Positions 15,524-43,210 of a stretch of 64,000 nt of DNA are shown piece after piece. The stretch's first letter is position 1. Each line of letters begins with the position of its first letter. Location: positions 1 to 64,000 of the forward strand of contig NZ_JASBRH010000007.1 in the NCBI RefSeq assembly GCF_029961155.1. Reading direction: 5' to 3'. This DNA is from Pontibacterium granulatum (lineage in GTDB: Bacteria; Pseudomonadota; Gammaproteobacteria; Pseudomonadales; Balneatricaceae). A program made the position numbers and the translations under genes. The notes beneath the pieces are model-generated. The model searched no databases. It was not told the origin of the DNA and saw only the letters and a list, made by a program, of their open reading frames with translations.

Positions 15524-17110
15524 TTACTTCCGCACCGGCCCCATATCATCTGTAACCAATGGCAACTCCATCCGGAAATGCGCCCCGTCTTCATTCGGCA
15601 AACACTCGATGTGTCCTTTCAGTAGCTGACTCACCAAGTTGAAGGTGATGTGCATGCCCAAGCCACTGCAGCCCTGATTGCGCTTGGTGGTCATAAACGG
15701 CTCGAACAGTTTGTAGCGCCATCCTTCGGGCACACCTACACCGTTATCCCGGTAATCGATGATCAGGTTATTGTCCTGTTGCCGGATCTCGATACGGATC
15801 TTGCCGCCCGGCTGGTTCTCAAACCCGTGTAACAGGGAGTTAAGAATCAGGTTGGTGAAGATCTGGTAGTAACTGCCCGGAAAGCTGTCGAGCAGCAGTT
15901 GGTCGGGGGCTTGAATGCTGATCTCAGGCTGGCAGCGTTTCAGACGTGGTTTCAGCGACAGCAGGATCTCATCCATATACTGCACCAGATCGAAGGTGCG
16001 ACGTTGTTCGCTGGATTGGTCGACGGAGACCTGTTTAAAGGCGCTGATCAGTTGGTTGGCGCGCTCCAGGTTCTGGCAGATCAGTTCGCTGCTCTCGACG
16101 GCGGTATCGGCCAACGGGTTGTCCGGGTTGAGCTGTTTCTGCTGTTTCGCCTGATCCGCCAGGAACGAAGCGGCGGTAAAACCGATGCCGATCGGTGTGT
16201 TGATCTCGTGAGCCACACCGGCCACCAGGCCACCCAACGCTGCGAGTTTCTTGGATTCCACCAGTTGTTGCTGGGTGGCCTGCAGCTTGGCCATGGCATC
16301 GTGCAGCTCCTGGTTACGTTCCTCCAGCTGTTGGGTGCGCTCGGCGACACGCTGTTCCAGTTCTCGGTTCAGCTTCGCCAGGGCCTGCTCGGCTTCGGCG
16401 CGTTTGCTCATATCCTTGAGCATGGATTCGCGCATGTTGTTCATTGCATCCACCACCTGACTCAATTCGTCGTCGCGGTTTTTCCCTTTGCGCTTGAGAA
16501 ACAGAGGCCGGTCAAGATGGTCCAGCTTCAGACGACGGGCATACTGCGCCATGGTGCCCAAGTGCTGGGTGATCATGCGATGAAAGATGGTGAGGATAAA
16601 GATCGATACCAGGAAGGTCTTGATCCCCTGGGAGGCCAGGATCACCAATACTTTATCGGCCAGGCGGCGGTATAGCTCGTCCAGGCTGATGATCAGGGTG
16701 AGATTACCCACATCGTAGATCACACCGTTATCAGCACGGTGTTGCAGATCATAGTGACGTTCCACAATCGGACCTTTCTCCGGGCGGCTGCCGGCGGCGT
16801 AAAAGTCACCGTACTGTGAGCTGATCTCCAGATAGCGTACGTCGGGCAGTTGGTGCAGGCCATCCAGTTGTACCTGAATCTGGTCCGGGCTGATCTCCCA
16901 CAGACTGTTGGAGAGGCTGTTAAGCGAGCTGGCCTCGATCTGCTGCAGACGTTCGTCGATCGCCGACAGTTCGTAGCGGTAATCCAGCCAAAGCTGGGTA
17001 CCGGTGGCAATCAGGGTGATGGCTGAGCTGCAAAGCAGAATCGCCGCCAACAGACGGATGCCCAGGGGCTTTTGGTAGCGGAACTGATTCAGGCGTTGCA
17101 GCAAGGTCAT
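15524..17110 (-). CDS. Sensor histidine kinase (orphan)
   Basis: A 528-residue membrane kinase with two membrane segments (about 17-40 and 160-185) bracketing a periplasmic sensor region with the motif NSLWEISPDQIQVQLDGL. A HAMP-like linker and a coiled coil (about 225-290) lead to the HisKA box LGGLVAGVAHEINTPIG and an HATPase_c domain (NLILNSLLHGF, DNGVGVP, GLGMHITFNLV). No response regulator adjoins it. It lies 10 bases downstream of the SMR exporter gene on the same strand and converges with the TAXI receptor gene, so it may sense a TAXI ligand or exporter substrate. Confidence 0.88.
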   Translation of the reverse strand: MTLLQRLNQFRYQKPLGIRLLAAILLCSSAITLIATGTQLWLDYRYELSAIDERLQQIEASSLNSLSNSLWEISPDQIQVQLDGLHQLPDVRYLEISSQYGDFYAAGSRPEKGPIVERHYDLQHRADNGVIYDVGNLTLIISLDELYRRLADKVLVILASQGIKTFLVSIFILTIFHRMITQHLGTMAQYARRLKLDHLDRPLFLKRKGKNRDDELSQVVDAMNNMRESMLKDMSKRAEAEQALAKLNRELEQRVAERTQQLEERNQELHDAMAKLQATQQQLVESKKLAALGGLVAGVAHEINTPIGIGFTAASFLADQAKQQKQLNPDNPLADTAVESSELICQNLERANQLISAFKQVSVDQSSEQRRTFDLVQYMDEILLSLKPRLKRCQPEISIQAPDQLLLDSFPGSYYQIFTNLILNSLLHGFENQPGGKIRIEIRQQDNNLIIDYRDNGVGVPEGWRYKLFEPFMTTKRNQGCSGLGMHITFNLVSQLLKGHIECLPNEDGAHFRMELPLVTDDMGPVRK

Positions 17111-17453: not shown

Positions 17454-17898
17454 CGTGTGTGTCTTCCGGTTAATGGGTAATAAGGCGCAGAGTTTTTCAC
17501 AAACCCTGAGCCCGAAACAAGCTACAAATTCTAAGTCTCTCTCAAGCTTTTCTTTACCCACCATAGCCTGATCTGAGTCGTGATTTCATCTCTCGATGCT
17601 GGAAATTGCCAAAAGTGGCACGAAAGGAGGTTTTGTTGGCATGGAAGGCGGTCTTGGGTGTGTGGTCTTTCCAATATGTTAGAGGACGTCTTTTGTTGAA
17701 GACTCACTCCTGTAACACAAACGTGGTTGGCAAAAAGCATGAAGGGGGCCAGCCCCGGTTGCAGGGGAGGAGGTGGTTCACCGGTACGCCGGGCGAACCG
17801 CTTCCTGAGCGCAGCAGCGGTCGAGTGAGAACACGCTGCTGATATAAGAACTTATTTAATAGCCCGCATGCGGGCGCATAAAGATAAGAAGGGTTCCC
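17454..17898. other. Intergenic region before the TAXI operon
   Basis: About 445 bases between divergent genes with no gene I can support. A perfect GC palindrome GCCCGCATGCGGGC lies at 17862-17875, just before the strong ribosome site AAGAAGGG of the TAXI receptor gene. It could be a regulator site or an mRNA 5' stem for that highly expressed type of gene. Confidence 0.4.
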
Positions 17899-18888
17899 AT
17901 GTCTCTGAAGAACAAACTTGCAACTACGCTTCTGTCCTCCGCAGTTGGTCTGGCGGCTGCTTTCTCTGCAACTACAGCCAGCGCTGATCAGACGTACGTA
18001 ACGATCGGTACCGGTGGTCAGACAGGTGTTTACTACGTTGTTGGTCAGTCTATCTGTCGTCTGGTTAACCGTGAAACTAAAGACCACGGCATCAAGTGTA
18101 CTGCGCCTTCTACCGGCGGTTCCGTAGCAAACATCAACGCAATCCGTCAGGGTCAGCAGGACATGGGTATGGCCCAGTCTGACTGGCAGTACCACGCTCT
18201 GAACGGTACTAAGCACAAGACCTTCATCGATCAGGGTAAATTCGAAAACCTGCGCGCACTGTTCTCCGTACACAACGAGCCGTTCACTGTCGTGGCACGT
18301 GCGGATTCCGGCGTTGAAACCTTCGACGACCTGGTAGGCAAGCGTGTAAACCTAAACAACCCAGGTTCCGGTACTCGCGGCACCATGGAAGTGATCATGG
18401 CTGAGAAAGGCTGGACCAAGGACAGCTTCAAACTGGCAGCAGAGCTGAAAGCAGCTGAGCAGGCTCAGGCACTGTGTGACAACAAACTGGACGTCATGCT
18501 GTACTCCGTAGGTCACCCATCCGGTGCGATCAAAGAAGCGACCACTTCCTGTGACGCTAAAGTGATTCCAGTGACTGGTCCGGTAATCGACAAGCTGATC
18601 GCTGAAAACGATTACTACGCTGATGCAACCATCAAAGGCGGCCTGTACAAGGGCACTGATGCAGACGTTGCAACTTTCGGTAACGCTGCGACTTTTGTAA
18701 CTTCTTCTGATGTAGATGCAGACACTGTTTACACCGTAGTGAAAGCAGTATTCGACAACTTCGATCGCTTCAAGCGTCTGCACCCTGCATTCAACAACCT
18801 GGACCCACAGAAAATGGTTTCTGGTGGTCTGTCCGCTCCTCTGCACGAAGGTGCAGTTCGTTACTACAAAGAACGTGGCTGGATGTAA
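17899..18888 (+). CDS. TAXI-family TRAP transporter solute-binding protein
   Basis: A 329-residue periplasmic receptor. The signal peptide is cut near ASA-DQ (about residue 29), followed by the TAXI motif TIGTGGQTGVYYVVGQ. The body shows MGMAQSDWQYHALNGT and MLYSVGHPSGAIKEA. Codon use is strongly biased to CTG and GGT, suggesting high expression. It is followed by a hairpin and then the fused membrane subunit. Known TAXI ligands include glutamate/glutamine and 2-oxoglutarate; the NAD-glutamate dehydrogenase gene downstream makes glutamate a reasonable guess. Confidence 0.92.
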   Translation: MSLKNKLATTLLSSAVGLAAAFSATTASADQTYVTIGTGGQTGVYYVVGQSICRLVNRETKDHGIKCTAPSTGGSVANINAIRQGQQDMGMAQSDWQYHALNGTKHKTFIDQGKFENLRALFSVHNEPFTVVARADSGVETFDDLVGKRVNLNNPGSGTRGTMEVIMAEKGWTKDSFKLAAELKAAEQAQALCDNKLDVMLYSVGHPSGAIKEATTSCDAKVIPVTGPVIDKLIAENDYYADATIKGGLYKGTDADVATFGNAATFVTSSDVDADTVYTVVKAVFDNFDRFKRLHPAFNNLDPQKMVSGGLSAPLHEGAVRYYKERGWM

Positions 18889-18953: not shown

Positions 18954-19040
18954 TCTGAGATCGCCGCTTCCCTTCGTTTGATGTGCAGATCTGCGGAGTG
19001 GGGTGGAGGTCTCTTTTTAATTCTGTAATTGGGAGCTGAT

Positions 19041-21659
19041 ATGACGGATCTGCAAAGCAGACAAGATCAGGTCGACGATAAAGAACTTCAGGACATGGTT
19101 GCGGCCAACGACACCGGCGCACGTATCCCTGAAGGTTTTCAAGGCAAACTGCTGCTGGGTATAGCGCTGTGCTGGTCTCTGTTCCAGCTGTGGATCGCTT
19201 CGCCACTGCCGTTTTACGACTGGCCTCTGATCGGTAGCTTCGGCATCTTTAACGACACTGAAGTTCGTTCTATTCACCTGGGCTTCGCCGCCTTCCTGGC
19301 ATTCACAGCATATCCTGCACTGGCGGGTTCACCGCGCCACCATATACCGGTCACGGATATTATTTTGTGCGCCCTGGGTGCCTTCAGTGCGTCTTACATC
19401 TTCCTGTTTTACGAACAGCTGGCAACCCGTCCGGGCCTGCCAAATACCCAGGATCTGGTTGTATCCATCATCGGTATCCTGCTGCTGCTTGAAGCAACCC
19501 GCCGTACGTTGGGGCCGCCGCTGATGATCGTCGCGATTGTGTTCCTGACATACTCGCTGGCCGGCCCGTACATGCCGGAGCTGATTGCACATAAAGGCGT
19601 TACACTAAAAGAGCTTGTTAACCACCAATGGCTGACCACGGAAGGCGTTTTTGGTATTGCGCTTGGCGTCTCCTCCAACTTTGTATTCCTGTTTGTATTG
19701 TTTGGTGCGCTGCTGGATAAAGCCGGTGCTGGTAACTACTTCATCCAGGTAGCGTTCTCCCTGCTGGGCCACATGCGGGGTGGCCCGGCAAAAGCCGCGG
19801 TTGTATCTTCCGGCCTGACAGGCCTGATCTCCGGTTCCTCCATTGCCAACGTGGTAACCACCGGTACCTTTACCATTCCGATGATGAAGCGTGTAGGTTT
19901 CACCTCCGAAAAGGCGGGTGCTGTTGAGGTTGCGTCTTCCGTTAACGGTCAGATCATGCCGCCGGTAATGGGGGCTGCTGCATTCCTGATGGTGGAGTAC
20001 GTGGGCATCTCCTATGTGGACGTTATCACCCACGCATTCCTGCCTGCGCTGATCTCCTACCTGGCATTGATCTACATCGTCCACCTGGAGGCGATGAAGC
20101 AGAATATGCAGGGTCTGCCGCGCCGTGTTGAAGTGAAAGCATGGCACCTGCGCCTGCTGGGTATTCTGACCGGTTTCCTGGTGACAGCGGGTATTGCTGC
20201 TGTTGTGTACTGGGGTATTGGCTGGATCAAACCTGCCGCCGGAGAATTCGCCGGTATGGTGATCGCTGTGCTGCTGGCGGGTGTGTATCTCTACTTGGTG
20301 CGTTTCGCAGCCAGCGTGCCAGATCTGAAACTGGATGATCCGAGTTCACCGATGGTACAGCTGCCGGAAGTGGGTCCTACCGTAAAATCCGGTTTGCACT
20401 TCCTGCTGCCTGTCGTTGTGTTGGTGTGGTGTCTGATGGTTGAGCGTTTGTCGCCGGGCTTGTCTGCATTCTGGGCGTCCGTGCTGATGATCTTCATCCT
20501 GGTGACCCAGCGCCCGCTGATGGCGTACTTCCGCAAACAGACCGATGTGAAAGCCCGTTTGCGTCAGGGCTTTAACGAATTGATTGACGGCCTGATTGTG
20601 GGGGCACGCAACATGATCGGTATCGGTATTGCGACTGCAACCGCCGGTATTATCGTAGGCGCTGTATCCCAGACCGGTGTCGGTGCCGTACTGGCGGATC
20701 TGGTAGAGGTGCTCTCTATGGGTAACCTGCTGCTGATGCTGATCCTGACGGCTATTCTGAGTCTGATTCTGGGAATGGGCCTGCCAACCACGGCAAACTA
20801 TATCGTTGTTTCCTCCCTGCTGGCACCGGTGGTGATCTCACTGGGTCAGGAGTCCGGACTGATCGTACCGCTGATCGCAGTGCATCTGTTCGTGTTCTAT
20901 TTCGGCATTATGGCGGACGTAACCCCACCGGTGGGGCTGGCGTCCTTTGCTGCGGCTGCGGTTTCCGGTGGTGATCCTATCCGGACCGGTTTCCAGGCGT
21001 TTAGCTACAGCATGCGTACCGCTTTACTGCCATTCCTGTTCATCTTCAACACTGACCTGTTGCTGATCGACGTAACCTGGGCTGAAGGTATCCAGATCTT
21101 CATCGTGGCGACTATTGCGATGCTGATCTTCACGGCCGCAACCCAAGGATACTTCTTTGCACGCAGCCGTTGGTATGAGTCAGTGCTGTTGCTGCTGATC
21201 GCGTTCTCCCTGTTCCGTCCGGGTTTCTGGATGGACCGCATTGTAGAACCGTACCAGCAGATCAGTCCGGCTGAGTTGGTGCAGAAAGCTGACGGTATCG
21301 AGACCGGTACAGAACTACGCTTGTGGATCGAAGGTGAAGATGAAGTAGGTAACCCGCGTTCTTTCGTAGCTAACCTGACGTTGGGTGAAGGCGAAGACGG
21401 TCAATCCCGTCTGGCCAGCACTGGAATCGAACTGCTTGAGCGAGATGGCAAAACCATCATCGATTATGTGGGCTTTGACAGTCCGGCGGAACATGCCGGT
21501 CTGGCGTTCGATCAGGTGATCACCGGAGTGGAAGCGCCACAAGCACAACCACCGAAGCAGCTGATCTTTATTCCGGCATTTGTTTTGCTGGCGATGATTA
21601 TTGTGTTGCAGCGTCGACGTCGCAAAGAAGAACCGGCAGCCGTACCCGCGGCGGCCTGA
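19041..21659 (+). CDS. TRAP transporter fused membrane subunit (DctQM type)
   Basis: An 872-residue inner-membrane protein that joins the small 4-helix and large 12-helix TRAP subunits, as usual for TAXI systems. DctM-type motifs are clear: GLISGSSIANVVTTGTF, LGMGLPTTANYIV and ADVTPPVGLA. After the last transport helices a soluble region (about 735-840) resembles the DUF3394/PDZ-like tail found in this family, and a final membrane helix ends in RRRRKEE. The start at 19041 follows GGGAG; an upstream TTG at 19029 is less likely. It is expected to import the ligand of the upstream receptor using a sodium gradient. Confidence 0.93.
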   Translation: MTDLQSRQDQVDDKELQDMVAANDTGARIPEGFQGKLLLGIALCWSLFQLWIASPLPFYDWPLIGSFGIFNDTEVRSIHLGFAAFLAFTAYPALAGSPRHHIPVTDIILCALGAFSASYIFLFYEQLATRPGLPNTQDLVVSIIGILLLLEATRRTLGPPLMIVAIVFLTYSLAGPYMPELIAHKGVTLKELVNHQWLTTEGVFGIALGVSSNFVFLFVLFGALLDKAGAGNYFIQVAFSLLGHMRGGPAKAAVVSSGLTGLISGSSIANVVTTGTFTIPMMKRVGFTSEKAGAVEVASSVNGQIMPPVMGAAAFLMVEYVGISYVDVITHAFLPALISYLALIYIVHLEAMKQNMQGLPRRVEVKAWHLRLLGILTGFLVTAGIAAVVYWGIGWIKPAAGEFAGMVIAVLLAGVYLYLVRFAASVPDLKLDDPSSPMVQLPEVGPTVKSGLHFLLPVVVLVWCLMVERLSPGLSAFWASVLMIFILVTQRPLMAYFRKQTDVKARLRQGFNELIDGLIVGARNMIGIGIATATAGIIVGAVSQTGVGAVLADLVEVLSMGNLLLMLILTAILSLILGMGLPTTANYIVVSSLLAPVVISLGQESGLIVPLIAVHLFVFYFGIMADVTPPVGLASFAAAAVSGGDPIRTGFQAFSYSMRTALLPFLFIFNTDLLLIDVTWAEGIQIFIVATIAMLIFTAATQGYFFARSRWYESVLLLLIAFSLFRPGFWMDRIVEPYQQISPAELVQKADGIETGTELRLWIEGEDEVGNPRSFVANLTLGEGEDGQSRLASTGIELLERDGKTIIDYVGFDSPAEHAGLAFDQVITGVEAPQAQPPKQLIFIPAFVLLAMIIVLQRRRRKEEPAAVPAAA

Positions 21660-21717: not shown

Positions 21718-21751
21718 TTCCAAGCACGCGACTATGCAGGAGAGAGCACAG

Positions 21752-22183
21752 ATGTTTAAGAAAGTACTGGTTCCTGTGGACCTGGCCGAGCCAGAGTTCA
21801 CCCGAAAGGCTATGCAACTGGCCCTGCGCGAAGTAGATGAAAATGCCGCAGAGTTACACCTGGTCACTGTTGTACCGGGCTTCACCAACTCGTTGGTGGC
21901 CTCGTTCTTCAGTGAAAAAGACCACCAGAAGGCCCTGACCGAGGTGGCACGTCAGTTCAAAAAATACGCCAAGCAGGCACTGCCGGAAGAACTGAAACCC
22001 GTTTTGAAAGTATTGGAAGGGTCGCCGGCAGAGATGATCGTAAAGTATGCAAAAGACCAGGCGATAGACCTGATTATCATGTCTGCCCATCATCGTTCCA
22101 AAGTGGACGAATTCCTGCTCGGATCGGTATCAGCGCGGGTGGTAGAGCGGGCTCAAAGCTCCGTTCTTTTGCTGAAAAACTGA
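21752..22183 (+). CDS. Universal stress protein, UspA family
   Basis: A 143-residue cytoplasmic protein with the Usp fold (KKVLVPVDLAEPE at the N-terminus; ATP-binding type end GSVSARVVERAQSSVLL). The ATG at 21752 follows AGGAGAG and is preferred over one at 21734. A Usp protein beside a TRAP transporter parallels TeaD with TeaABC of Halomonas, where it tunes transporter activity; the same role is inferred here. Confidence 0.88.
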   Translation: MFKKVLVPVDLAEPEFTRKAMQLALREVDENAAELHLVTVVPGFTNSLVASFFSEKDHQKALTEVARQFKKYAKQALPEELKPVLKVLEGSPAEMIVKYAKDQAIDLIIMSAHHRSKVDEFLLGSVSARVVERAQSSVLLLKN

Positions 22184-22404: not shown

Positions 22405-25400
22405 ATGTCCGAACGAATCTGCGACAGCAGTGCGTTGCTGTCTCCGTTGAACGACCTTCTACAGCAACGCCTGTCTGCCGAAATGGCCACGCAGGTGACC
22501 GACTTCTCAAGTCATTACTACAAGACCGCAACTTCCGAAGAGCTGGCCGAACGCGCTTTGGAAAACCTCTACGGCGCCACCCTGTCGAGCTGGCAATGTA
22601 TCCAGTCCTTTGATGGTCTTAAACCAAAACTTCGTCTCTACAACCCGGATCTGGAACAGCACGGCTGGCGCGCGCAGCACACCGTGATCGAGATCGTACA
22701 GACGGATATCCCGTTTTTGGTCGATTCAGTGCGTATGGCGCTGAACCGCTGTGGTCTGGTGATCCATACCATCCACAATGCCATTTTGTTTACCCGCCGT
22801 AACGAAAACGGCGAGTTGATCGAATTGTGTGAGAAGTCGGCTGAAGGCGCAAAAGCGGAATCGGTTATTTACCTCGAAGTGGATCGCACCAGCGACGGTG
22901 CTGAACTGAAAGCGATCCACGACCAACTGAAAAAAGTCCTCAAGCACGTGCATATCGCGGTGGAAGATTATGCTGCGATGCAGGGCCGTGCCGAAGCGAT
23001 GCTGGCTGACTTGGCCGAGCGTGGTGAGCAGGAGGATATTCAGGCGTTCCTGCGCTGGATGCTGGACGACCACTTCACCTTCCTGGGGTACGATGAGATT
23101 CGTATCGATGGTGATCAGGTGCTGCCGGTTGAAGGCTCCGAGTTGGGGATCTTCAAATTAAATAAAAAAGCGTCCGGCAGTGCGCTGTCTGACCTGCGTG
23201 ATGCCGAGCGCGAGTTCCTGCTGGAACCTTCCCCGCTGATGTTTGCCAAGGATGCCCGCTCCTCTCTGGTACACCGTCCGGCGTACATGGATCGCATCGT
23301 TCTGAAGCAGTTTGACGACGACGGCAATGTGACCGGCAAGATCCGCTTCCACGGTCTTTACACCTCCTCTGTGTACTCCCTGCCGATGTCCGCGATCCCT
23401 GTGATTCGCGATAAGGCGAACAACGTACTGGAACGTAGCGGTTTCGACCGCAACAGCCACAACGGTAAACACCTGCTGCAGATCATGAACGATCTGCCAC
23501 GTGATGAGCTGATGCTGACCACCGAACAGCAGCTGCTGGAGATCGCCATGGGTATCTTCAGCCTGAACGAGCGCCGTAAGGCGCGCCTGCTGATGCGCCG
23601 TGATCGCTGCAACCAGTTCGTGACGTTCCTGTACTACGTACCACGAGACATCTTCACCACCGAGCTGCGCCTGCAGGTGCAGGATCTGCTGATGAAGGCG
23701 ACCGGTGGTATCGGCAGTGAATTCACCACCACCTTCAGCGAATCTGTACTGGCACGCGTACAGTACGTATTGCGTATCGACCCGGACAATGCGCCGAACG
23801 TGGATATGGCGCAGCTGGAAGCGGAAGTGGTGAAAATCTCCCGCGACTGGAGTGACGAGCTGCACGCCGCGCTGACCGACGCATGCGGTGAAGAGAAGGG
23901 CAATCAGCTGCTGCACAACTACCGTTACGCATTCACCAGCGCGTACCGTGAGCACTTTGGTCCGGCCAGCGCTGTTTACGATATTCAGCGTATCGAAGCC
24001 CTGGGTGACGCCAACCCGATCACCATGAGCTTCTACCGTGTGCTGGAGCAGAGCTCCGAGCTGCTGCGCTTCAAACTGTTCAACGCCGGTGAGCCGCTGG
24101 TGCTGTCCGACGTGATCCCGGTGCTGGAAAACTTAGGGATGCGCGTAGTGGGTGAGCACCCTTACGCGGTGCGGCGTGCGGATGGCAAACAGTTCTGGAT
24201 GCACGACTTTACCCTGATTTACCAAGGCTCCGAGCCGGTAGTGCTGGACGAAGTGCAGGACGTATTCCAGGATGCATTCGCCAGCATCTGGAGCGGCGGT
24301 GCAGAGAACGACGAATTCAACCAACTGGTTATCGGTGCCAATCTGAACTGGCGTGAAGTGGCAATGCTGCGTGCCTATGCCCGCTACAGCCAGCAGATCC
24401 GTTTTGGTTTCTCCCAGCCGTACATCGCAGGTGCACTGTCCCGTCACATTCAGGTAACCCGCCTGTTGGTGGCCCTGTTCCGTGCGCGCTTCGAGCCAAG
24501 CCGTCAGGACAGCGACAAGGTTAAAGCACTGGCAGATCGTATCGAGTCCAGCATCATCGACGCGCTGGACAAGGTGGATAACCTCAACGAAGACCAGATC
24601 TTGCGTCGCTTCCTGGAGCTGATCAAAGCAACCCTGCGTACCAGCTTCTTCCAGCGTGATGAAAATGGCGAGCTGAAGGATTACTTCTCCTTCAAACTGA
24701 GCCCGAAAATGATCAAGAACATCCCGCTGCCGCGTCCGATGTTTGAGATCTTCGTATACTCCGCGCGTGTGGAAGGTGTTCACCTGCGTGGCGGCAAGGT
24801 TGCCCGCGGTGGTTTGCGTTGGTCCGACCGTCTGGAAGACTACCGCACCGAGGTACTGGGTCTGGTTAAGGCGCAGCAGGTGAAGAACTCCGTGATCGTA
24901 CCTGTCGGTGCGAAGGGTGGTTTCGTCGCCAAGCAGCTGCCAACCACTGGCGGCCGTGAAGCATGGCTGAACGAAGGTATCGCCAGCTACAAGATCTTTA
25001 TCAGTGCGCTGCTGGATATCACCGACAACCTGGTGGCCGGTGACGTGGTACCGCCGGTTGATGTGGTACGTCATGATGAAGACGATCCGTACTTCGTAGT
25101 CGCGGCAGACAAAGGTACCGCGACCTTCTCCGACATCGCCAACGAAATCGCCGAGAGCCGTGGTTTCTGGCTGGGTGATGCGTTTGCGTCCGGTGGTTCC
25201 CAGGGCTACGACCACAAAGGCATGGGTATCACTGCCCGTGGCGCCTGGGAGTCCGTGAAACTGCACTTCCGCGAACTGGGCCTCGACACCCAGAGCGAAG
25301 AGTTCACCGTGATCGGTATCGGCGACATGGCCGGTGACGTATTCGGTAATGGCATGTTGCTGTCCGAGCACATCCGTATGTGTGCGGCGTTCAACCACAT

Positions 25401-27222
25401 GCATATCTTTATCGATCCAAACCCGGATGCCGCGAGCAGCTTCATCGAACGTAAGCGCATGTTCGAACTGCCACGCTCCACCTGGGAAGACTACAACCAG
25501 GAACTGATCTCAGCGGGCGGTGGTATCTTCAGCCGTGCCGCCAAATGGATCGAGATCAGCCCTGAAATGAAAGAACGCTTCGCGATTGAAGCGGATCGTT
25601 TGACCCCGAACGACCTGATCAACGCGCTGCTGAAAGCACCGGTTGACCTGATCTGGAACGGCGGTATCGGTACCTACGTGAAAGCCAGCCACGAAACCCA
25701 CGCGGAAGTGGGCGACAAGGCGAACGACGGTCTGCGTGTGAATGGTAACGAACTGCGCTGTAAGGTACTGGGCGAGGGCGGCAATCTGGGCTTCACCCAG
25801 CAGGGCCGTATGGAGTTCTGTGCCAACGGCGGTAAGTCCAACACCGACTTTATCGATAACGCCGGTGGCGTGGACTGCTCCGACCACGAGGTCAACATCA
25901 AGATCCTGCTGAACGAAGTGGTAGCCAACGGCGACCTGACCGTGAAGCAGCGTAACGCTTTGCTGCGTGACATGACCGACGAAGTGGCCGAACTGGTATT
26001 GCACAACAACTACGAGCAGGCACAGGCGATCAGTATCGCGCTGAACCACGCACACGGTTCCATGGACGAGTACACCCGCCTGATCAACCGTCTGGAAGAT
26101 GACGGCAAGCTGGACCGCGAACTGGAGTTTATCCCGGCGCAGGAAGTGCTGCAGGAGCGCAAAGTGAATGGCCTGGGGTTGACCCGTCCTGAACTGTCTG
26201 TGCTGATCTCCTACGTGAAGGCCGAGCTGAAAGAAGGCCTGATCGACAGCTGGATCACCGGTGACGAATACCTGAGCCGTGAAGTGATGACGGCCTTCCC
26301 GCAGACACTGATCGAGGGTTACCGCGAACAGATCAACCAGCACCGCCTGCGTCGTGAAATCATCGCCACTCAGATCGCCAACGGTATGGTGAACACCATG
26401 GGTATCACCTTCGGTGAGCGCCTGAGCCAGATGGCGGGTTCTGCCTTTGACGAAGTGGCGGCTGCTTACGTCATCGCCCGTGATGTGTTCGGCATCCAGA
26501 AACTGTGGGCTGATATCGAAGCACTGGATAACAAAGTCGACGCCGCCCTGCAGCAGCAGATGATGGCTGACCTGATCCGTATGGGCCGTCGCGCGACCTA
26601 CTGGTTTGTGCGCAACCAGCGTGCAGGCACTGACGTGGCAAGCGTGGTTGAGCAGTTCCGCCCAGCGGTACAGCAGCTGAGCAGTCAGTTGCAGACCCTG
26701 CTGAACGGCGAACCGCTGGAACGCTGGCAGCAGAAACACGACGAGCTGGTGGGTGCGGGTGTTCCTGCAGAACTGGCGGCCGTGGTGGCCGGTGCCGACA
26801 GCCTGTACTCCCTGCTGGGTGTCATCCAGGCGGCAGAAGAAACCGCTCAGCCGCTGGAGAAAGTGGCCGAGATCCACTTCAGCCTGGGCGACCGTCTGCA
26901 GCTGCACTGGTTCGACCACCAGGTGAAAGAGCTGGAAACCTCCAACCATTGGGAAACCATGGCACGTGACGGTTTCCGTGAAGACCTGACCCGTCACCAG
27001 CAGGCGATTACCGTCTCTGTACTGACTGCAGACGTTGAAGAAGCCGACGCAGCAGCAGAGAGCGGCAACGGTGCTCAGCTGGATAGCTGGTTTGCAAGCA
27101 ACGAAACCATGCTCAAGCGCTGGCAGCGTCTGCTGAACGACATCCGCAACAGTGCTCAGCAGGATTTCGCGATCTTCACTGTAGCGATCCGCGAACTGCT
27201 AGAACTGGCGCAGGCTAAGTAA
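22405..27222 (+). CDS. gdhB: NAD-dependent glutamate dehydrogenase, large type
   Basis: A 1605-residue cytoplasmic enzyme of the GDH2/L-180 class, which converts glutamate to 2-oxoglutarate and ammonium with NAD. The length matches the family (about 1600). The N-terminal half carries the ACT-like regulatory modules; the catalytic core near residues 800-950 has KNSVIVPVGAKGGFV with the active lysine, and the dinucleotide-binding segment includes VIGIGDMAGDVFGNGM and WNGGIGTYVK. Codon use is highly biased. It stands alone after the TAXI-TRAP genes, which would fit uptake and breakdown of glutamate. Confidence 0.95.
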   Translation: MSERICDSSALLSPLNDLLQQRLSAEMATQVTDFSSHYYKTATSEELAERALENLYGATLSSWQCIQSFDGLKPKLRLYNPDLEQHGWRAQHTVIEIVQTDIPFLVDSVRMALNRCGLVIHTIHNAILFTRRNENGELIELCEKSAEGAKAESVIYLEVDRTSDGAELKAIHDQLKKVLKHVHIAVEDYAAMQGRAEAMLADLAERGEQEDIQAFLRWMLDDHFTFLGYDEIRIDGDQVLPVEGSELGIFKLNKKASGSALSDLRDAEREFLLEPSPLMFAKDARSSLVHRPAYMDRIVLKQFDDDGNVTGKIRFHGLYTSSVYSLPMSAIPVIRDKANNVLERSGFDRNSHNGKHLLQIMNDLPRDELMLTTEQQLLEIAMGIFSLNERRKARLLMRRDRCNQFVTFLYYVPRDIFTTELRLQVQDLLMKATGGIGSEFTTTFSESVLARVQYVLRIDPDNAPNVDMAQLEAEVVKISRDWSDELHAALTDACGEEKGNQLLHNYRYAFTSAYREHFGPASAVYDIQRIEALGDANPITMSFYRVLEQSSELLRFKLFNAGEPLVLSDVIPVLENLGMRVVGEHPYAVRRADGKQFWMHDFTLIYQGSEPVVLDEVQDVFQDAFASIWSGGAENDEFNQLVIGANLNWREVAMLRAYARYSQQIRFGFSQPYIAGALSRHIQVTRLLVALFRARFEPSRQDSDKVKALADRIESSIIDALDKVDNLNEDQILRRFLELIKATLRTSFFQRDENGELKDYFSFKLSPKMIKNIPLPRPMFEIFVYSARVEGVHLRGGKVARGGLRWSDRLEDYRTEVLGLVKAQQVKNSVIVPVGAKGGFVAKQLPTTGGREAWLNEGIASYKIFISALLDITDNLVAGDVVPPVDVVRHDEDDPYFVVAADKGTATFSDIANEIAESRGFWLGDAFASGGSQGYDHKGMGITARGAWESVKLHFRELGLDTQSEEFTVIGIGDMAGDVFGNGMLLSEHIRMCAAFNHMHIFIDPNPDAASSFIERKRMFELPRSTWEDYNQELISAGGGIFSRAAKWIEISPEMKERFAIEADRLTPNDLINALLKAPVDLIWNGGIGTYVKASHETHAEVGDKANDGLRVNGNELRCKVLGEGGNLGFTQQGRMEFCANGGKSNTDFIDNAGGVDCSDHEVNIKILLNEVVANGDLTVKQRNALLRDMTDEVAELVLHNNYEQAQAISIALNHAHGSMDEYTRLINRLEDDGKLDRELEFIPAQEVLQERKVNGLGLTRPELSVLISYVKAELKEGLIDSWITGDEYLSREVMTAFPQTLIEGYREQINQHRLRREIIATQIANGMVNTMGITFGERLSQMAGSAFDEVAAAYVIARDVFGIQKLWADIEALDNKVDAALQQQMMADLIRMGRRATYWFVRNQRAGTDVASVVEQFRPAVQQLSSQLQTLLNGEPLERWQQKHDELVGAGVPAELAAVVAGADSLYSLLGVIQAAEETAQPLEKVAEIHFSLGDRLQLHWFDHQVKELETSNHWETMARDGFREDLTRHQQAITVSVLTADVEEADAAAESGNGAQLDSWFASNETMLKRWQRLLNDIRNSAQQDFAIFTVAIRELLELAQAK

Positions 27223-28223: not shown

Positions 28224-29270
28224 TCAAATCGGCAAGACGCAGCGCAATGCACCGTTATCTTCGATATCCAGCATCTGGCCATGCAGCTGCTCGGCCAATA
28301 ACGTTATCTGTTGCTGCAGATGGACCACCCATGGCTCCTGGCTGAAGCGTGCCTGACCCAAGGTCTGGGAAACACTCAGCACCATCTGGTCATCCTGGCT
28401 ACCGACCTGCATGGTAATTTTCAGATCGTTACCGCCAGCCTGCAAAATCGCCAACTCCACCAAACTGATCAACAACTGACGCAGGTACGCCGGATCGGTT
28501 TTGATCTGCGCGGGCAGCTGCGGATCAATGCTGTAATCCAACAGCCAGCCATCGCGGCGGCTTTGCGGCAGGAAGGTATGCAGTACTTCATCCATCAGGC
28601 TGATCGGCTCGATCATATCTACCTGGTGGGGTGCGCTGATCTCGTTCAGCAGGCTGATGCTGTTGTGCAGGCGCTGGTGTTGCGCATGTAGGTTGCTGGT
28701 CAGGTCTTTTGCAACTGGGTTCAGGTCAAACTGCTGCAGCCGTTGGCTCTGCTGAAGGATTGGCTGCATCTGGCCGTGGAGCTGTTTTGCCGCGGACTCC
28801 AGCAGCTGGCTATCGTTACCCGGTTGCTCCGGGCTCGTAGCGGCTTGCTGACGGGCGGATTTGATATCGCGGTAGGAGCGCAATGCAACCACCACGGAGG
28901 TTAGCAGACGGGAGGCAGACAGCTCGGCCTTACTCAGGTAGTCGTTGATGTCGTAGTTCACGATCACCTGGGCTTCCGGTGCATATCCCGGATGGCCGGT
29001 ACGCAGGACGATGCGGATATCCTTGTTGCTAAGGTCGTTGCGGATATGCTCCACCAACAACAAACCGGCGTTGTCGGTTTCCATCACCACATCCAGCAAC
29101 ACCAGCGCGATATCCGGGTGTTGCGCCAGCATATCCTTGGCTTCGGTGCCGTTCATGGCACTGATCAGCTCAATCGGGCGTTGCTCAAACTCATAACCAC
29201 GGAAGATCATCCGGGTGATGCCGTGGATGCCTTCTTCGTCGTCTACGACTAGTACTTTCCAGGGTGCCAT
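28224..29270 (-). CDS. Receiver-domain protein with apparently degenerate kinase core
   Basis: A 348-residue protein. Residues 1-130 form a receiver (KVLVVDDEEGI; phospho-acceptor Asp in ALVLLDVVME; conserved RTGHPGYAPEAQVIVNYDINDY as in DUF3369-type regulators). The rest resembles a histidine-kinase dimer plus ATPase region (LRQLLISLVELAILQAG looks like an N-box), but the N-box asparagine and the glycine-rich ATP lid are not visible, so it is probably inactive as a kinase. There is no DNA-binding or output enzyme domain. It lies 75 bases downstream of the AraC-family gene on the same strand, so they are likely cotranscribed. Confidence 0.75.
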   Translation of the reverse strand: MAPWKVLVVDDEEGIHGITRMIFRGYEFEQRPIELISAMNGTEAKDMLAQHPDIALVLLDVVMETDNAGLLLVEHIRNDLSNKDIRIVLRTGHPGYAPEAQVIVNYDINDYLSKAELSASRLLTSVVVALRSYRDIKSARQQAATSPEQPGNDSQLLESAAKQLHGQMQPILQQSQRLQQFDLNPVAKDLTSNLHAQHQRLHNSISLLNEISAPHQVDMIEPISLMDEVLHTFLPQSRRDGWLLDYSIDPQLPAQIKTDPAYLRQLLISLVELAILQAGGNDLKITMQVGSQDDQMVLSVSQTLGQARFSQEPWVVHLQQQITLLAEQLHGQMLDIEDNGALRCVLPI

Positions 29271-29345: not shown

Positions 29346-32300
29346 CTATTTTGCCAGCAAAGCGAGGCGCTGTACCAGTTGTTTTACCTTGGTATCCGCA
29401 CCCCATCCCTCATAAAACCAGCGGGCTTCGTTAAAACAGAAACGGGCCAGGCTCGGTTGATCATAAGCACTGAGGTATTCGGCGTAACGCTCGTAGATCA
29501 GCGCCTTGTGGAAGCCAAACGGTTGCTCTCCTGTAGCTGCCAGTGCCTGTTCGAAAAAGCGACCTGCCAGCTGTCCGTCCAGGCGTGCCTTTTCTGCCTG
29601 TAACAGGAAAAGCTGACCGTTAAAGTTGGCCGGGCAGTGGCGTGCCCAGATCTCCAGACGCGACTCCAGTTGCTCCACCTCCAGGCGGCGACGTTTGCTG
29701 ATCGCGCCCTGTTGCTGGGCCTGGATCAGGCGCATCAGGGCGGTACAGAACAGCGCTTCACTCACACCAAAGTAACCGGCCAGCTCGTTCTCCAGTTGGG
29801 ATTCCCATTGGTAGAAGCTGTGCCAGAGGTGCTGTTGGTCAAGCAGCAGGGCGGCGATGATGGCGCTGACCGCCTGCCAGCCATGCTGGTATTCCACGGC
29901 ATTGATACGTTGCTCGGTGGTTAACTGATCAATCAGTTTGAGTGCGGAGCTTTGTAGGCACTCGGCGGAGTACGCCTGATGCTGGTTGATCATCTGTGCA
30001 TGTTGCTGCTGCAGATGTTCCCGTTGTGCCTTCAGGTCGCTGGTCGAGAACAGGTTGAGCTGTGCCAGCAGCAGACGGCTCTCACTTTGCAGTAACCACT
30101 GGCCGTGTTGACCCGTCAGGTGGTCGATCTGCTGCAGTTGCTCCTGCACGGAACGCAGTGGGCTGAACCAGTGCTGCACCTGACTGCAGTGGAGTAGGGC
30201 GGCACCGGTTGCCGAGTCGGTGTTTTCATTTTCCTGGATCAGGCCGCCGTAGCGGTTGGCCAGCTGCATGCCTTGCGCCGAAAAGGTCTGAGCGAGGGAA
30301 AAGTCGGCACAGAACCAGCTGGCAACCCAGGCGTAGGAAACAAACGCAAAAGGTGTGAGCGGGGTGCGGCCGTAACGCAGGCTCAGTTCGGTCATACGGC
30401 CAATAGCACAAGCAGCCAGCAACGGTTGGCTCTGCTGGCGGGCGAGCAGGGCGATCTGTTCCAGCAGCTGCAGGCGCACGTACTGAGAACTGTCGGTCAG
30501 CTCCTTCATGTCGGTGAGCGCCTGGGCGCTGAAGGCATCACTGATGTAGTTCAGCTGGGTAAGCAGCAACGACAGCTGCTCATTGGACTGTTGCGGCAAT
30601 GCCTGATCGATCTGCGCCAGTTGTGCCAGTAGATAGTCGAGTGCATCCTCATGGCGACTCTGATGTTGCAGCAAACGGCTGGTCATCAACGCTGCGCGCC
30701 CGGTATCGGAACGGCTCAGCTTCTGCTGCTCAATCACATCCAGCGTTTTTTGTGCTTCTGCAATCTGACCCGCCAGCAGATACAAATTGGCACACTGCAT
30801 ACGGCGTTCAGTGGGATCAGGCAGTCCCTTTGCGGGAGGCAGGCCACAGGCGATAGCCATGTAGCGGCTGGCGGTAGCAAAATCCTGCTGTTTGCGGGCG
30901 AGGTCGGATGCACGCAGGGTCAGGCGCAAATAAGCCTGTTGCAGCTCGCTGTTGAGATGATCCGCGCCGATCTCCTGCAGATGAAACAGCAGGTCGCCAA
31001 GCTGTTCGAGCCCGGCGGAGCGGGGCAGGTTAGCGATCAGAAAGCGTGCGTAATTAGCGTGCAATCGCTGCCGGTTATCGCTAGCAATTGCGTGGTAGAT
31101 CTGTTGCCACAGGTCGAGATCGGCAAATCGATACTGGGTGATGTCATCGCTATTCTGCAGGGCGATGATCAGCCCGGCTTGTTCCGCAGGCCAGAAGTGA
31201 ATTGCCAGACGCGCCAACGGGTTGCCGGTGACTTCAGCTATCTGGTTGAGGTCAAAATGCTCACCGATGATTGCGGCCCGCTCCAGCAGTTCCAGGCTGA
31301 AACGGCTGAGGCCAGTCAGCTTATGTGATAATTGTTTCGCCCGATCGGGGGACTTCAGCCAGTCAGTGTTTGGCTGGCTGGTGGTCTGCGCTGGAACACT
31401 GTCGATCTCAACCGGTTTAACCTGCTGGCGGTATTCGCTGGGTGCCATTCCCATCCACCGCTTAAAGGCTTTCTGGAACGCGGATTGGTTGGAAAAACCC
31501 AGCTGGAACGAGATCTCACCAAAGCTGAGCTGGCCGCGCTGGATCAGCTGCAGGCACACCTCCCTGCGGGTCTGGTCGTAGATATCCTGAAAGCTGCTGC
31601 CTTGCTGGCCCAATTTGCGCTGCAGGGTACGCAGGCTAAGTCCAACGGATTCGGCGATCTGTTCCCGCCGTACACTGCCACCACCTTCGGCCAGCTGTTG
31701 GCGGATCAGGTTTCGGGTCTGGGCGGTGAGGGCGTTTTGCAGTGAGGCCTTACTCAGCAGGGAGTCTGCGAATTCCCGGTGCAGGTGATGCATCTCGCTG
31801 TTGGCGTCTACACAGGTCATCTGCAGGTAATCACTGCTCAGCAGGAGCTGGTTACGGGCCGCATCAAACTCTACTTCGGCGGCAAAGAACTGCTGGTAGG
31901 GCTGGATGTTGATTGGCTCAGGCAATGTTAGCTGTACCGCCAGGGCAGGGACCTGACGCCCGATTAGCCAGCGGGGCCAGTTGATCAGACAGGCGAGGAA
32001 ATATTCCACCGCGTGGGGATCGTTGTCGTTCAGCTCCAGGGTTAAAACGGTGCCATCAACGTTCTGCTCCATCTGCAGCACCGCACCCTCAAACAGCAGT
32101 GGCAGGTAATCGATCAGTGTCTGGTAGGACTGCTCCAGGGTGGGCGCCGTGGACATCAGGAAGCCAATCGAACCCAGCATGCGTGGCTGGGTGGCTTCAC
32201 CCAGATGCAGGGCGATGAGCGGGTTGCCACTGATCTCGGAGAGCTTGTCGAGCACCTTCGGATAGAGCGAAGCCGGAAAGCGCGCGCCGGGTTTGGTAAA

Positions 32301-32429
32301 CTCCTGTTCGGGCAGTGCGGCAATCTCCAGAATACTCTGCTGCAGATCCTGCCCGGTCGGTTGACGGTAGTGCCGGGCCAGTTGCAGAACCGGCTCCAGA
32401 AGCTTGGCGGAAACTGTGGTTACGGCCAT
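29346..32429 (-). CDS. Large AraC-family regulator with STAND-like helical tail
   Basis: A 1027-residue protein, about three times the normal AraC length. Residues 1-210 match the Arabinose_bd/OruR-type N-domain. The double helix-turn-helix is at about 235-340 (VGLSLRTLQRKLG; FGEISFQLGFSNQSAFQKAFKRW). From about 365 onward the sequence resembles the region that follows the ATPase in PknK/AAA_16 signalling proteins (LLERAAIIGEHFDLNQIAEVTG, AGLI, ...LHANYARFL, TPR-like helices), but no Walker A or B motif is visible. It is divergent from a periplasmic binding protein gene, a possible target. The frame is intact throughout. Confidence 0.78.
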   Translation of the reverse strand: MAVTTVSAKLLEPVLQLARHYRQPTGQDLQQSILEIAALPEQEFTKPGARFPASLYPKVLDKLSEISGNPLIALHLGEATQPRMLGSIGFLMSTAPTLEQSYQTLIDYLPLLFEGAVLQMEQNVDGTVLTLELNDNDPHAVEYFLACLINWPRWLIGRQVPALAVQLTLPEPINIQPYQQFFAAEVEFDAARNQLLLSSDYLQMTCVDANSEMHHLHREFADSLLSKASLQNALTAQTRNLIRQQLAEGGGSVRREQIAESVGLSLRTLQRKLGQQGSSFQDIYDQTRREVCLQLIQRGQLSFGEISFQLGFSNQSAFQKAFKRWMGMAPSEYRQQVKPVEIDSVPAQTTSQPNTDWLKSPDRAKQLSHKLTGLSRFSLELLERAAIIGEHFDLNQIAEVTGNPLARLAIHFWPAEQAGLIIALQNSDDITQYRFADLDLWQQIYHAIASDNRQRLHANYARFLIANLPRSAGLEQLGDLLFHLQEIGADHLNSELQQAYLRLTLRASDLARKQQDFATASRYMAIACGLPPAKGLPDPTERRMQCANLYLLAGQIAEAQKTLDVIEQQKLSRSDTGRAALMTSRLLQHQSRHEDALDYLLAQLAQIDQALPQQSNEQLSLLLTQLNYISDAFSAQALTDMKELTDSSQYVRLQLLEQIALLARQQSQPLLAACAIGRMTELSLRYGRTPLTPFAFVSYAWVASWFCADFSLAQTFSAQGMQLANRYGGLIQENENTDSATGAALLHCSQVQHWFSPLRSVQEQLQQIDHLTGQHGQWLLQSESRLLLAQLNLFSTSDLKAQREHLQQQHAQMINQHQAYSAECLQSSALKLIDQLTTEQRINAVEYQHGWQAVSAIIAALLLDQQHLWHSFYQWESQLENELAGYFGVSEALFCTALMRLIQAQQQGAISKRRRLEVEQLESRLEIWARHCPANFNGQLFLLQAEKARLDGQLAGRFFEQALAATGEQPFGFHKALIYERYAEYLSAYDQPSLARFCFNEARWFYEGWGADTKVKQLVQRLALLAK

Positions 32430-32518: not shown

Positions 32519-33292
32519 ATGTCCTTGCGTGCCAGTATAAGCCGATTCCTGAGCAAACCTGCCCGATTTATGATCGGTGTGCTGCTGTGTGCACTGTTCA
32601 GTTCTGCTGTGTTTGCTGAGATCCTGCGCGTGGGCATGCCGTTGCCCGGACAAAATCCCTTCTTCTGGCGTGATGATGGGGGGGCTTACAAGGGCATCTA
32701 TGTGGATACGCTGCGCCGTGTGGCGAATGATCTGGGCGTCGATCTCGAATTTATACCGCTGTCCCAGGCCCGTCTTCGCCGCCACTTTATCTCCGGCGAG
32801 ATCGATATCGAGATGGGGGTATCACTCAACTTTGAAGTGCCACCCGAACTGGAGCAGGTCTCCTTCTACAGCCGCCCCTACGGCATCGTGAACGAAGTGA
32901 TTATCTACAGCCCCCAGCTGTCGTTTCCGGTGTTTATCCTCAAGGACCTGGAGAACCGCCGCGTGGCCACCGTGCGCGGTACCTCCGTACCGGATAACCT
33001 GATCCGCGAAGACTTCGCCAACCAGTGGCAGATCGCCCAGCGGGTGCACCGGGGATGGAACGACGTAGGTCTGATGAAAGAGGTGCTGGCGATCCGCTAC
33101 CAGCGTGAAGACAACCTCAACTACGAGATCTCGCTGCCCTATAACAGCAATCCGGTTGTGTTCCGTTTGCATGTGGATAAGAAGGCGCTGCTGCAACCGA
33201 TGAATGAGTCGATCGAACGGTTGGAGGAGCAAGGTGAACTGGAACGCTTGGTATGTAAGTACCTTTGTGGCACGGGTGAGGTTAATCAGTAG
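32519..33292 (+). CDS. Periplasmic substrate-binding protein (SBP_bac_3-like)
   Basis: A 257-residue secreted protein. The signal peptide is cut near VFA-EI (about residue 36), followed by LRVGMPLPGQNPFFWRDDGGAYKGIYVDTL, typical of amino-acid type type-II binding folds. There are no transport genes on the same strand nearby. It is divergent (90 bases) from the large AraC regulator, so it may serve as a sensor or an ABC transporter receptor. The substrate is not evident. Confidence 0.75.
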   Translation: MSLRASISRFLSKPARFMIGVLLCALFSSAVFAEILRVGMPLPGQNPFFWRDDGGAYKGIYVDTLRRVANDLGVDLEFIPLSQARLRRHFISGEIDIEMGVSLNFEVPPELEQVSFYSRPYGIVNEVIIYSPQLSFPVFILKDLENRRVATVRGTSVPDNLIREDFANQWQIAQRVHRGWNDVGLMKEVLAIRYQREDNLNYEISLPYNSNPVVFRLHVDKKALLQPMNESIERLEEQGELERLVCKYLCGTGEVNQ

Positions 33293-33914: not shown

Positions 33915-34974
33915 TCATACCTTGTCAGCGACAGGTGGCGTCCAGTTGTGCGTGACCAAAGCCGCGAGCTTGATGACCTTCAGCGGGAGGTTATTCACGC
34001 TCAGTTTCCGGTAGTTTGCACTCAGCACTTTACGCAGCTTTTCGAACAGGACGAACGCCATCATGGAGAGCGTCAGCCACCACTGGTTACTCCACCAGTG
34101 TTTGCTCGATGTGCGCTTGGCAAACAGGTCCAGCTGCTAATCCTTGATACGATTTTCCATATCACCCTTGACGCAGTAGTCTTCGCCGTACAGCTTGGTA
34201 TCGCCGCTGGTCAGGGTGGTGACCACAAAGCGTGGATTACGTCCTTTATCCGTGAGTTCTATCTTGGTAATCACGTCCCGCGCTTTCTTCCAGCGACCGG
34301 CCTGATATCGGTAGCGCCAGAACCATTTGGTTGCACCGGTCATGCCCTATTTTCGACATGATGCATGGCGCGGTTCCAGATGTTTCCAGAGGGGTTCAAT
34401 CAGCGCCTCCAGTCGGCTGTTCCTGGCAATCCCTACCAGATAATCAACCCGGTTACGGTCACACCAGTTCAAGACCAACTGGCGACAGAGGCCGCTGTTG
34501 CCCCGAAAGATGATCTGAACGTCAGGCCAGTGACGACGCATAAAGGTCACCAACAGCTTGAGGATGTCGCCGGTGTGCTTTGCTACATCAATCTTACTTT
34601 GCCGAAGGTACGCCGCCAGAGGGAAGCGACCGCTGAACACGTATAACGGCAGGTAGCAGTAATGATCGTAGTAGCCGTGGAGAACTTCTCCGGCTGGTCG
34701 TCGTGCAGCGGGGTGTCCGTTGCGTCGAAGTCCAGTACGATGCGCGTGGGTACCTTGCGGTGGCTGGTAATAAACTGCTCCCAGAGGAGTCGGTGCGACT
34801 CGATGATCGCCTCTCGATTCATCGCGGCTTCGAATCGATATAGTGTTGCCGGACTTGCCAGCGGTTGGAATCGATCAACGGTGGTTTGTAACGCCAAGTC
34901 AGACAGTAGCCTTTCATGGTCATACAGGTCTTCATACCCAGCAGTGATAGCAAATTGGCGCTGTTGCAACATGG
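33915..34974 (-). pseudogene. IS1380-family transposase, broken
   Basis: Three pieces match one IS1380-type DDE transposase. The N-part reads ITAGYEDLYDHERL and VLDFDATDTPLH. The middle reads IIFRGNSGLCRQLVLNW. The end reads YCVKGDMENRIKD and then QLDLFAKRTSS. Damage: the first 60-80 residues are missing at the junction with IS110 sequence, a frameshift lies near 34690 (before the expected HGYYDHYCYLPLY-like stretch), and two in-frame TAG codons occur at 34347-34349 and 34137-34139. The stop is TGA at 33915-33917. It cannot make an active enzyme. Confidence 0.85.
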
Positions 34975-42412: not shown

Positions 42413-43210
42413 GTTTTAAAAGGGCGGAATACTTAAAATCCTGCGTAGCAACTCTGCGCCTCATTCTAGGATTGTGGAACCGCTCAATATAGTCGAACAC
42501 ATCGCTCCGAGCCTCATTCCGCGTTCGATAGTAGCGATGGTGGACACGCTCTCGTTTGAGCATTCCGAAGAAGCCCTCGCAGGCCGCATTGTCACCGCAA
42601 TGGCCAACAGCACTCATACTACTCACCAAAGCCTTCTTGCTCAGGCAGCGCTGGAAGTCACCGCTGGTGAACTGAGTGCCGCGGTCTGAGTGAACTATTA
42701 CAGAAGTGTACCCTAGCTTTGCCAGACAGCCATTTCAGCCGCTCGAACGACTATGTGACGATCCTGGCGGTGATGCATAGACCAACCCACGACCAGCTTA
42801 CTGAACAGATCAAGGACTACGCACAGATATAGCTTGCCCTCCTGAGTTGGGATTTCTGTTATATCTGTCACCCATTTGGTATGCGGCTCCTGCACCGAGA
42901 AATCTCGCGCAAGGTGGTTACGAATACCCGCAGGGCGCACAGAGGCTCGGCGGGCTCCTCGTCGCTTCTTACGTGGCCAGCCTTGAATGCCGTGCGCTGA
43001 CATCAAGCGGGCAACCCGATTCAGGCTTATAGATTCACCTTCTGCAACCAGGTCTTTATGCATACGAGGGGCGCCGATCACTCTACCGCTGTCATCGTGA
43101 ATTTCACGAATACGGCTCAACAAGCGCTGATTGTCTCTGGCCCTGGCAGAGTCAGGACGAGAGACCCAAGCGTAATATCCGCTCGGTGATACGTTTAGGC
43201 AACGGCACAT
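42413..43210 (-). pseudogene. IS3 orfB (DDE transposase), frameshifted
   Basis: The first part (43210 to about 42715) reads [20 protein letters not shown] and [15 protein letters not shown] with the first catalytic Asp. Near 42715 the frame changes; the continuation reads VIVHSDRGTQFTSGDF (second Asp) and CEGFFGMLKRERVHHR (Glu). All three catalytic residues survive, but the frameshift splits the protein. Confidence 0.85.

Follow-up and report, generated by a model that had tools for sequence, protein, structure and literature searches.

Gene and domain organization

The window, that is, the whole 64,000-nucleotide stretch of Pontibacterium granulatum DNA analysed here, carries on its minus strand an uninterrupted open reading frame of 1027 codons (29346-32429 with the stop codon, 29349..32429 without it). 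The frame encodes an AraC regulator with a STAND-type tail, and 34 further ATPase-less orthologues were found. The protein consists of an AraC half (residues 1-343), a linker of about 20 residues (344-362; 31344..31400, minus strand) and a helical tail of 665 residues. An earlier, sequence-only reading had proposed an Arabinose_bd domain and an AraC helix-turn-helix for the front half, and Pfam matches both: Arabinose_bd at residues 31-204 (31818..32339, minus strand; PF12625, E 3.5e-34), whose fold match is the N-terminal domain of VirS (8rcw, Z 21.2), and HTH_18 at residues 258-336 (31422..31658, minus strand; PF12833, E 5.9e-18), with AraC/Rns/ToxT fold matches at Z 12-14. The double helix-turn-helix DNA-binding domain of AraC/XylS regulators is thus present by both family and fold. 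When compared with models of GliR, QhpR and CypR and with the CdpR structure 5chh, residues 23-337 share the Arabinose_bd and HTH_18 arrangement of QhpR, GliR and CdpR, the Arabinose_bd group of AraC/XylS regulators; unlike the window protein, however, these are only about 280-340 aa long and have no C-terminal extension. The window protein also falls below the NCBIfam equivalog cut-offs for QhpR (194 bits against 250) and GliR (164 against 570), and PADLOC gave no match.

Beyond these two domains, no Pfam model reached the threshold in the other two thirds of the protein; there was no AAA/NTPase match, and TPR_19 stayed below threshold. Scans of the whole protein for GxxxxGK[ST] and for the relaxed [AG]xxxxGK[ST] returned zero matches, so the earlier claim that Walker A and B motifs are missing holds and no hidden P-loop came to light. 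Thus, the P-loop NBD with Walker A and B motifs that characterizes STAND proteins is absent, while the tail has the winged-helix domain (WHD), arm and repeat sensor that follow the NBD-HD in such proteins.

The neighbouring genes

Immediately downstream and co-oriented in 32/32 loci is a gene for a REC domain joined to a degenerate histidine-kinase region (28227..29270, minus strand). Pfam Response_reg matches 15/15 of these REC-pseudokinase proteins, and the acceptor Asp60 is kept in all 15 aligned; the second half matched no Pfam kinase family, and the predicted fold of this C-terminal part resembles histidine kinases (LvrB, RetS). On the other flank, the divergent neighbour in 24/32 loci is a gene for a periplasmic solute-binding protein of the SBP_bac_3 family (SBP; 32519..33289, plus strand; Pfam E 6e-14), downstream of which two apparent broken transposase genes were seen by eye only (33948-34972 and 42716-43210).

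The opposite side holds TRAP, Usp and/or glutamate-dehydrogenase genes in most of the 32 loci. In the window these form an operon on the plus strand, with genes for a TAXI solute-binding protein (17899..18885; Pfam NMT1_3), a TRAP permease (DctM + DUF3394; 19029..21656), a universal stress protein (21734..22180) and an NAD-glutamate dehydrogenase (22405..27219; Pfam Bac_GDH_CD, E 1.6e-271). The TAXI protein is close to the solved TAXI structures 8s4j (best match, E 2.8e-123) and 9ibo. The related VC0430 of Vibrio cholerae is glutamate-specific and has a Usp gene downstream (PMC11574862), and this closeness, together with the Usp gene, points to glutamate uptake and breakdown as the setting of the locus. 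The window operon resembles VC0429/VC0430 in its closely similar TAXI protein, TRAP permease and Usp, but adds the dehydrogenase and a tandem-repeat element. A CHASE5 histidine kinase that may provide input to the REC protein is encoded at 15530..17110 (minus strand; Pfam CHASE5, HATPase_c), and such a gene lies near the locus in 7/32 loci within the flanking DNA examined.

Origin of the tail

The sequence-only reading had likened the tail to the region behind the NTPase domain of PknK/AAA_16 proteins, and profile comparison bears this out. In a search with a profile built from ten tails, the second tier of hits comprised proteins of 1650-2250 aa from the same bacterial family, with E down to 2e-51. 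They include HstK-type proteins (Ser/Thr kinase - AAA_16 - TPR-like - GAF - HisKA), whose tail is collinear with that of the window protein over about 650 residues. Alignment of the 35 ATPase-less tails to HstK tails with hhalign gave a match that is collinear throughout its 648 columns, with probability 100 and E 5e-50; reversed controls and controls with shuffled columns gave E 0.13-0.31. In addition, BLASTP of the window tail against the HstK-like protein of its own genome gave E 1.6e-18 over positions 8-664, nearly the whole tail. In contrast to HstK-type proteins, the window protein has no kinase, AAA_16, GAF or histidine kinase and bears an AraC half in front. The N-terminal Ser/Thr kinase of the HstK/PknK type persists as a truncated remnant only in ATPase-bearing relatives, and the C-terminal GAF, HisKA or other output is absent, the window protein stopping where the tail stops.

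The AlphaFold model (pLDDT 85.6) agrees with this assignment. Residues 363-435 form a helix-helix-strand-helix-helix-hairpin, as expected of a winged-helix domain (helices 363-372, 376-388, 394-401 and 405-417; strands 391-393, 421-424 and 432-435), followed by a helical solenoid. Together with the HstK-tail alignments, the model places the winged-helix domain of the lost NOD at residues 363-436 (31122..31343, minus strand) and the arm and TPR-like sensor solenoid at residues 437-1027 (29349..31121, minus strand). MalT domain III (1hz4) matches the model with Z 14.9 over 334 residues, and Foldseek finds PH0952 (6mfv), a STAND protein with a TPR sensor, at E 1.2e-4. Many other structural matches are unrelated TPR solenoids, and the tail profile, when searched against PDB sequences, matched nothing but generic TPR proteins (E about 0.003). 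Since helical repeats match many structures, the case for a STAND origin rests on the sequence comparisons. One may argue from these matches, and from the merely sub-threshold TPR signal in Pfam, that the tail is an unrelated TPR solenoid which looks STAND-like only because helical repeats look alike. We regard this as extremely improbable, since the HstK-tail match is full-length and collinear, has clean controls and includes the non-repeat winged-helix start, and since relatives at the same locus carry AAA_16 directly before the same tail. The 665-residue tail is the winged-helix domain, arm and TPR-like sensor of an HstK/PknK-type STAND protein. In terms of the STAND scheme of NBD, HD, WHD, arm and sensor (PMC6468293), the window protein keeps the last three and lacks the NBD and HD, the cut falling at the HD-WHD hinge.

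The HstK-like protein of the window genome (L110, 2126 aa) is assigned as such by its domain order, Pkinase - AAA_16 - tail - GAF - PAS - HisKA - HATPase - REC - Hpt. Its gene (L110:3319-9696, G000 contig C27) encodes the catalytic-loop motif HKQISPDN, with Gln in place of the usual aspartate, a substitution also seen in several of its relatives in the family; the kinase may therefore be inactive. In a protein from a relative (L111:2854-7917), an HstK-type front of kinase, AAA_16, tail and GAF is joined to a GGDEF diguanylate cyclase in place of a histidine kinase; one and the same tail thus serves several outputs.

Relatives that retain the ATPase

Four relatives of 1458-1542 aa combine an AraC half, a truncated pseudokinase, AAA_16 with Walker A/B and the same tail, and their gene neighbourhood is that of the ATPase-less forms. 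G001, a second species of the window genus, has at the same locus a protein of 1458 aa in which a 473-aa insert, comprising a kinase-C-lobe-like stretch and AAA_16 (E 1.2e-8) with the Walker A motif GGSGSGKT, separates the AraC half from the tail. The other three, in G095, G093 and Motiliproteus sediminis, are 1467-1542 aa long, with AAA_16 at E 1e-27, 2e-32 and 2e-19, respectively. Alignment with HstK proteins shows that the kinase N-lobe is absent from all four and that the AraC half occupies its place. G095 and G093 retain Walker A, Walker B and the GNPFF motif, whereas in M. sediminis and G001 Walker A/B are retained and the other NOD motifs have decayed. The pseudokinase and AAA_16 of these proteins, 473-528 aa in all, lie where the ATPase-less proteins have a linker of only 20-54 aa.

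Distribution and order of events

The ATPase-less architecture is kept in 35 species (independent assemblies, the window included), with lengths of 1013-1171 aa, and the locus occurs in Amphritea, Neptunomonas, Marinobacterium, Pontibacterium, Oceanospirillum, Neptuniibacter and Motiliproteus. The idea that such proteins make up a distinct family is thus upheld by their presence in many genomes of the window's family; outside it, no AraC-tail architecture was found in 390 genomes of the order or 369 of the class. In another family of the order, AraC hits fell in open frames of 470-934 aa that resembled additional fusions, but these proved to be stop-free read-through beside AraC genes of normal length.

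When nine HstK-type tails are used to root the tail tree, G095 and G093 branch first, then G001 and M. sediminis, and then all 35 ATPase-less proteins as one clade (SH-aLRT 99), although the exact placement of G001 and M. sediminis is uncertain because of their long branches. Trees of the AraC half and of AraC plus tail each likewise require one change only. Since the ATPase-bearing forms are basal, the AraC fusion came first and the pseudokinase-NBD-HD block was lost once, later. The window protein descends from an AraC-pseudokinase-AAA_16-tail ancestor that lost the pseudokinase and whole NBD-HD in one event; both the HstK origin of the tail and the single loss of the ATPase are well supported. 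Hence, the earlier suggestion that a DNA-binding domain was swapped in for the ATPase was wrong about the order: AraC joined first, and a single deletion of the ATPase followed. Some genera have both ATPase-bearing and ATPase-less forms at this locus, which requires gene exchange or an old duplication besides the single loss.

The clean split of the two architectures on the unrooted AraC-plus-tail tree might instead indicate that AraC was fused separately to a tail fragment and to an ATPase-tail protein, without any loss of an ATPase in this lineage. This is improbable, as the AraC halves, the locus and the REC and SBP neighbours are orthologous between both forms, and the HstK-rooted tail tree has the ATPase-bearing forms at its base with intermediate motif decay.

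Selection has acted on both parts of the protein. In the pairs compared, some of them near synonymous saturation, dN/dS is 0.03-0.08 for the AraC half and 0.10-0.18 for the tail, which is still under purifying selection. As 35 species keep the ATPase-less architecture under low dN/dS, the open reading frame of the window is not a chance one. The AraC half does evolve more slowly than the tail, by a factor of about 2-4, as would be expected if the tail were a functionless, decaying remnant on an ordinary AraC regulator; but the tail, with its dN/dS of 0.10-0.18, its full length retained in 35 species and its many invariant residues, makes such decay, if anything, slightly less probable still than separate fusions.

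A putative operator

De novo motif discovery upstream of the AraC gene yielded TGGCACGcAAGGAcaT (likelihood 187, against 46-52 for shuffles). In the window, the corresponding half-site TGGCACGCAAGGACAT (32519..32534, minus strand), conserved in 29 orthologues, coincides with the first codons (MSLRA), start codon included, of the divergent SBP gene; the half-site is nevertheless kept in Amphritea, whose locus has no SBP gene. The AraC promoter has one half-site only, whereas 246 bp upstream of the TAXI gene lies a putative operator, the direct repeat TGGCACGAAAGGAGGT-TTTGT-TGGCATGGAAGGCGGT with copies 21 bp apart (17616..17652, plus strand), beyond which, at about 20 bp, lies a TATGTT element. 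In most genomes with this TAXI gene the repeat occurs upstream of it with the consensus TGGCAYGnnAGGmGGT, twice, at 21-bp spacing. The core TGGCACGnAAGGA is common to the repeat and the half-site.

In scans of 450 bp upstream, TAXI genes of the locus score 43-61 (G001 included) and that of M. sediminis an intermediate 27, while TAXI paralogues score about 0 or below, even one 84% identical in the same genome as a positive. Among 116 family genomes, the 37-bp element occurs in exactly one copy in each of 23, with none in the backward control. Of these, 21/23 also have the regulator, and the two that lack it are incomplete genomes; the Fisher value of this co-occurrence, 4e-11, is uncorrected for relatedness, and the association is confounded by phylogeny. 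At the stringency used, 16/37 AraC-tail genomes are without the tandem repeat: Amphritea, the divergent g11 group, G060 (with a weaker repeat) and the three ATPase-bearing genomes of g13, in which M. sediminis has a degenerate repeat and G093 a half-site. Searched for genome-wide with up to 3 mismatches, the single half-site is uninformative (43 matches, 58 in the backward control); only one further perfect match exists in the genome, within a coding sequence.

XylS sites are direct repeats with A and B boxes (PMC5481539), and the putative operator in the window has the same layout. It is strongly suggested that the regulator binds this 21-bp-spaced repeat before the TAXI-TRAP/Usp/glutamate-dehydrogenase operon, and the half-site in its own promoter, as an AraC-type activator; the repeat as operator is a strong computational prediction. 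A less likely arrangement, though one with more to commend it than the alternatives above, is that the repeat and operon answer to another regulator, for instance a partner of the CHASE5 kinase or the response regulator encoded at 13501-14163, and that the AraC protein controls only the SBP gene and itself. The half-site does lie in the AraC/SBP intergenic region, a second two-component pair is encoded near the TAXI gene, and Amphritea has the AraC protein and its promoter site with no repeat at TAXI. Nonetheless, A and B boxes in direct repeats of this spacing are the pattern of AraC/XylS regulators, and the shared TGGCACGnAAGGA core ties the repeat to the AraC gene promoter, both of which favour control by the AraC protein.

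Proposed mechanism and significance

STAND proteins are thought to require nucleotide exchange in the NOD for switching, and their WHD-arm-TPR module is normally clamped by the ADP-bound NOD. The window protein, in contrast, is best read as an activator of glutamate uptake and catabolism that derives from a STAND protein and works independently of nucleotides. An ATPase-less regulator derived by loss, which binds the repeat and senses through an ATP-free tail, is jointly the best explanation of the data (probability about 0.68).

The closest comparisons are MalT, a STAND transcription activator of E. coli, and AfsR (SARP - NOD - arm - TPR). MalT shares the WHD, arm and TPR sensor with the window protein and its domain III is a structural match, as is the STAND protein PH0952 with its TPR sensor; but in MalT the NBD-HD is functional and a LuxR helix-turn-helix forms the C-terminus, whereas the window protein has no NBD-HD and an N-terminal AraC half. 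AfsR, like the window protein, places a DNA-binding activator before the STAND parts, and it binds direct repeats at the -35 region (PMC10936776); unlike the window protein, it retains the NOD and belongs to another DNA-binding family. In both MalT and AfsR, ATP binding in the NOD relieves inhibition by the arm and sensor (PMC6468293, PMC10936776). Since this route is closed to the window protein, a direct allosteric one is inferred. Without an ATP/ADP switch, the tail would be an ordinary allosteric sensor, in which WHD, arm and sensor restrain or position the AraC half. The CHASE5 kinase or the SBP might then sense a signal, which a partner, judging from gene order most plausibly the always-adjacent REC-pseudokinase, would relay by docking on the TPR-like tail. 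Once freed, the AraC half would pair at the tandem repeat and bring in RNA polymerase at times when glutamate from outside the cell repays its uptake. Rap proteins offer a precedent for TPR-REC contact, with RapH-Spo0F (3q15) among the structural matches of the window model, whereas here the contact is proposed from gene order only. That a STAND protein has in this way naturally become a nucleotide-independent switch, its WHD-arm-TPR module acting directly on the AraC domain upon a signal from the REC-pseudokinase, with ATPase-bearing relatives at the same locus and operator, is a tentative proposal to which we give somewhat less than an even chance.

AraC regulators that carry an HstK-derived tail do exist, some with the ATPase and some lacking it, and a literature search, with most subscription journals outside its reach, found no description of an AraC-STAND or AraC-kinase-AAA_16 fusion. 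As the NBD-HD was deleted once and the sensor kept, what such a sensor can do without ATP becomes testable. Moreover, the surviving series, from HstK-like ancestors through decaying NODs to none, has the DNA-binding half in all its members. Because ATPase-bearing relatives survive, the loss can be traced stepwise, with glutamate uptake as a probable and testable target; the locus also offers candidates for the regulator, its partner and its operator in TAXI-TRAP import of glutamate by marine Oceanospirillaceae. In the stretch that contains the TRAP operon lies a gene for a second TAXI-type binding protein (14466-15377, plus strand). Its product is about 43% identical to the glutamate TAXI protein, and the gene adjoins those of a histidine kinase (12069-13487) and of the response regulator mentioned above (13501-14163).
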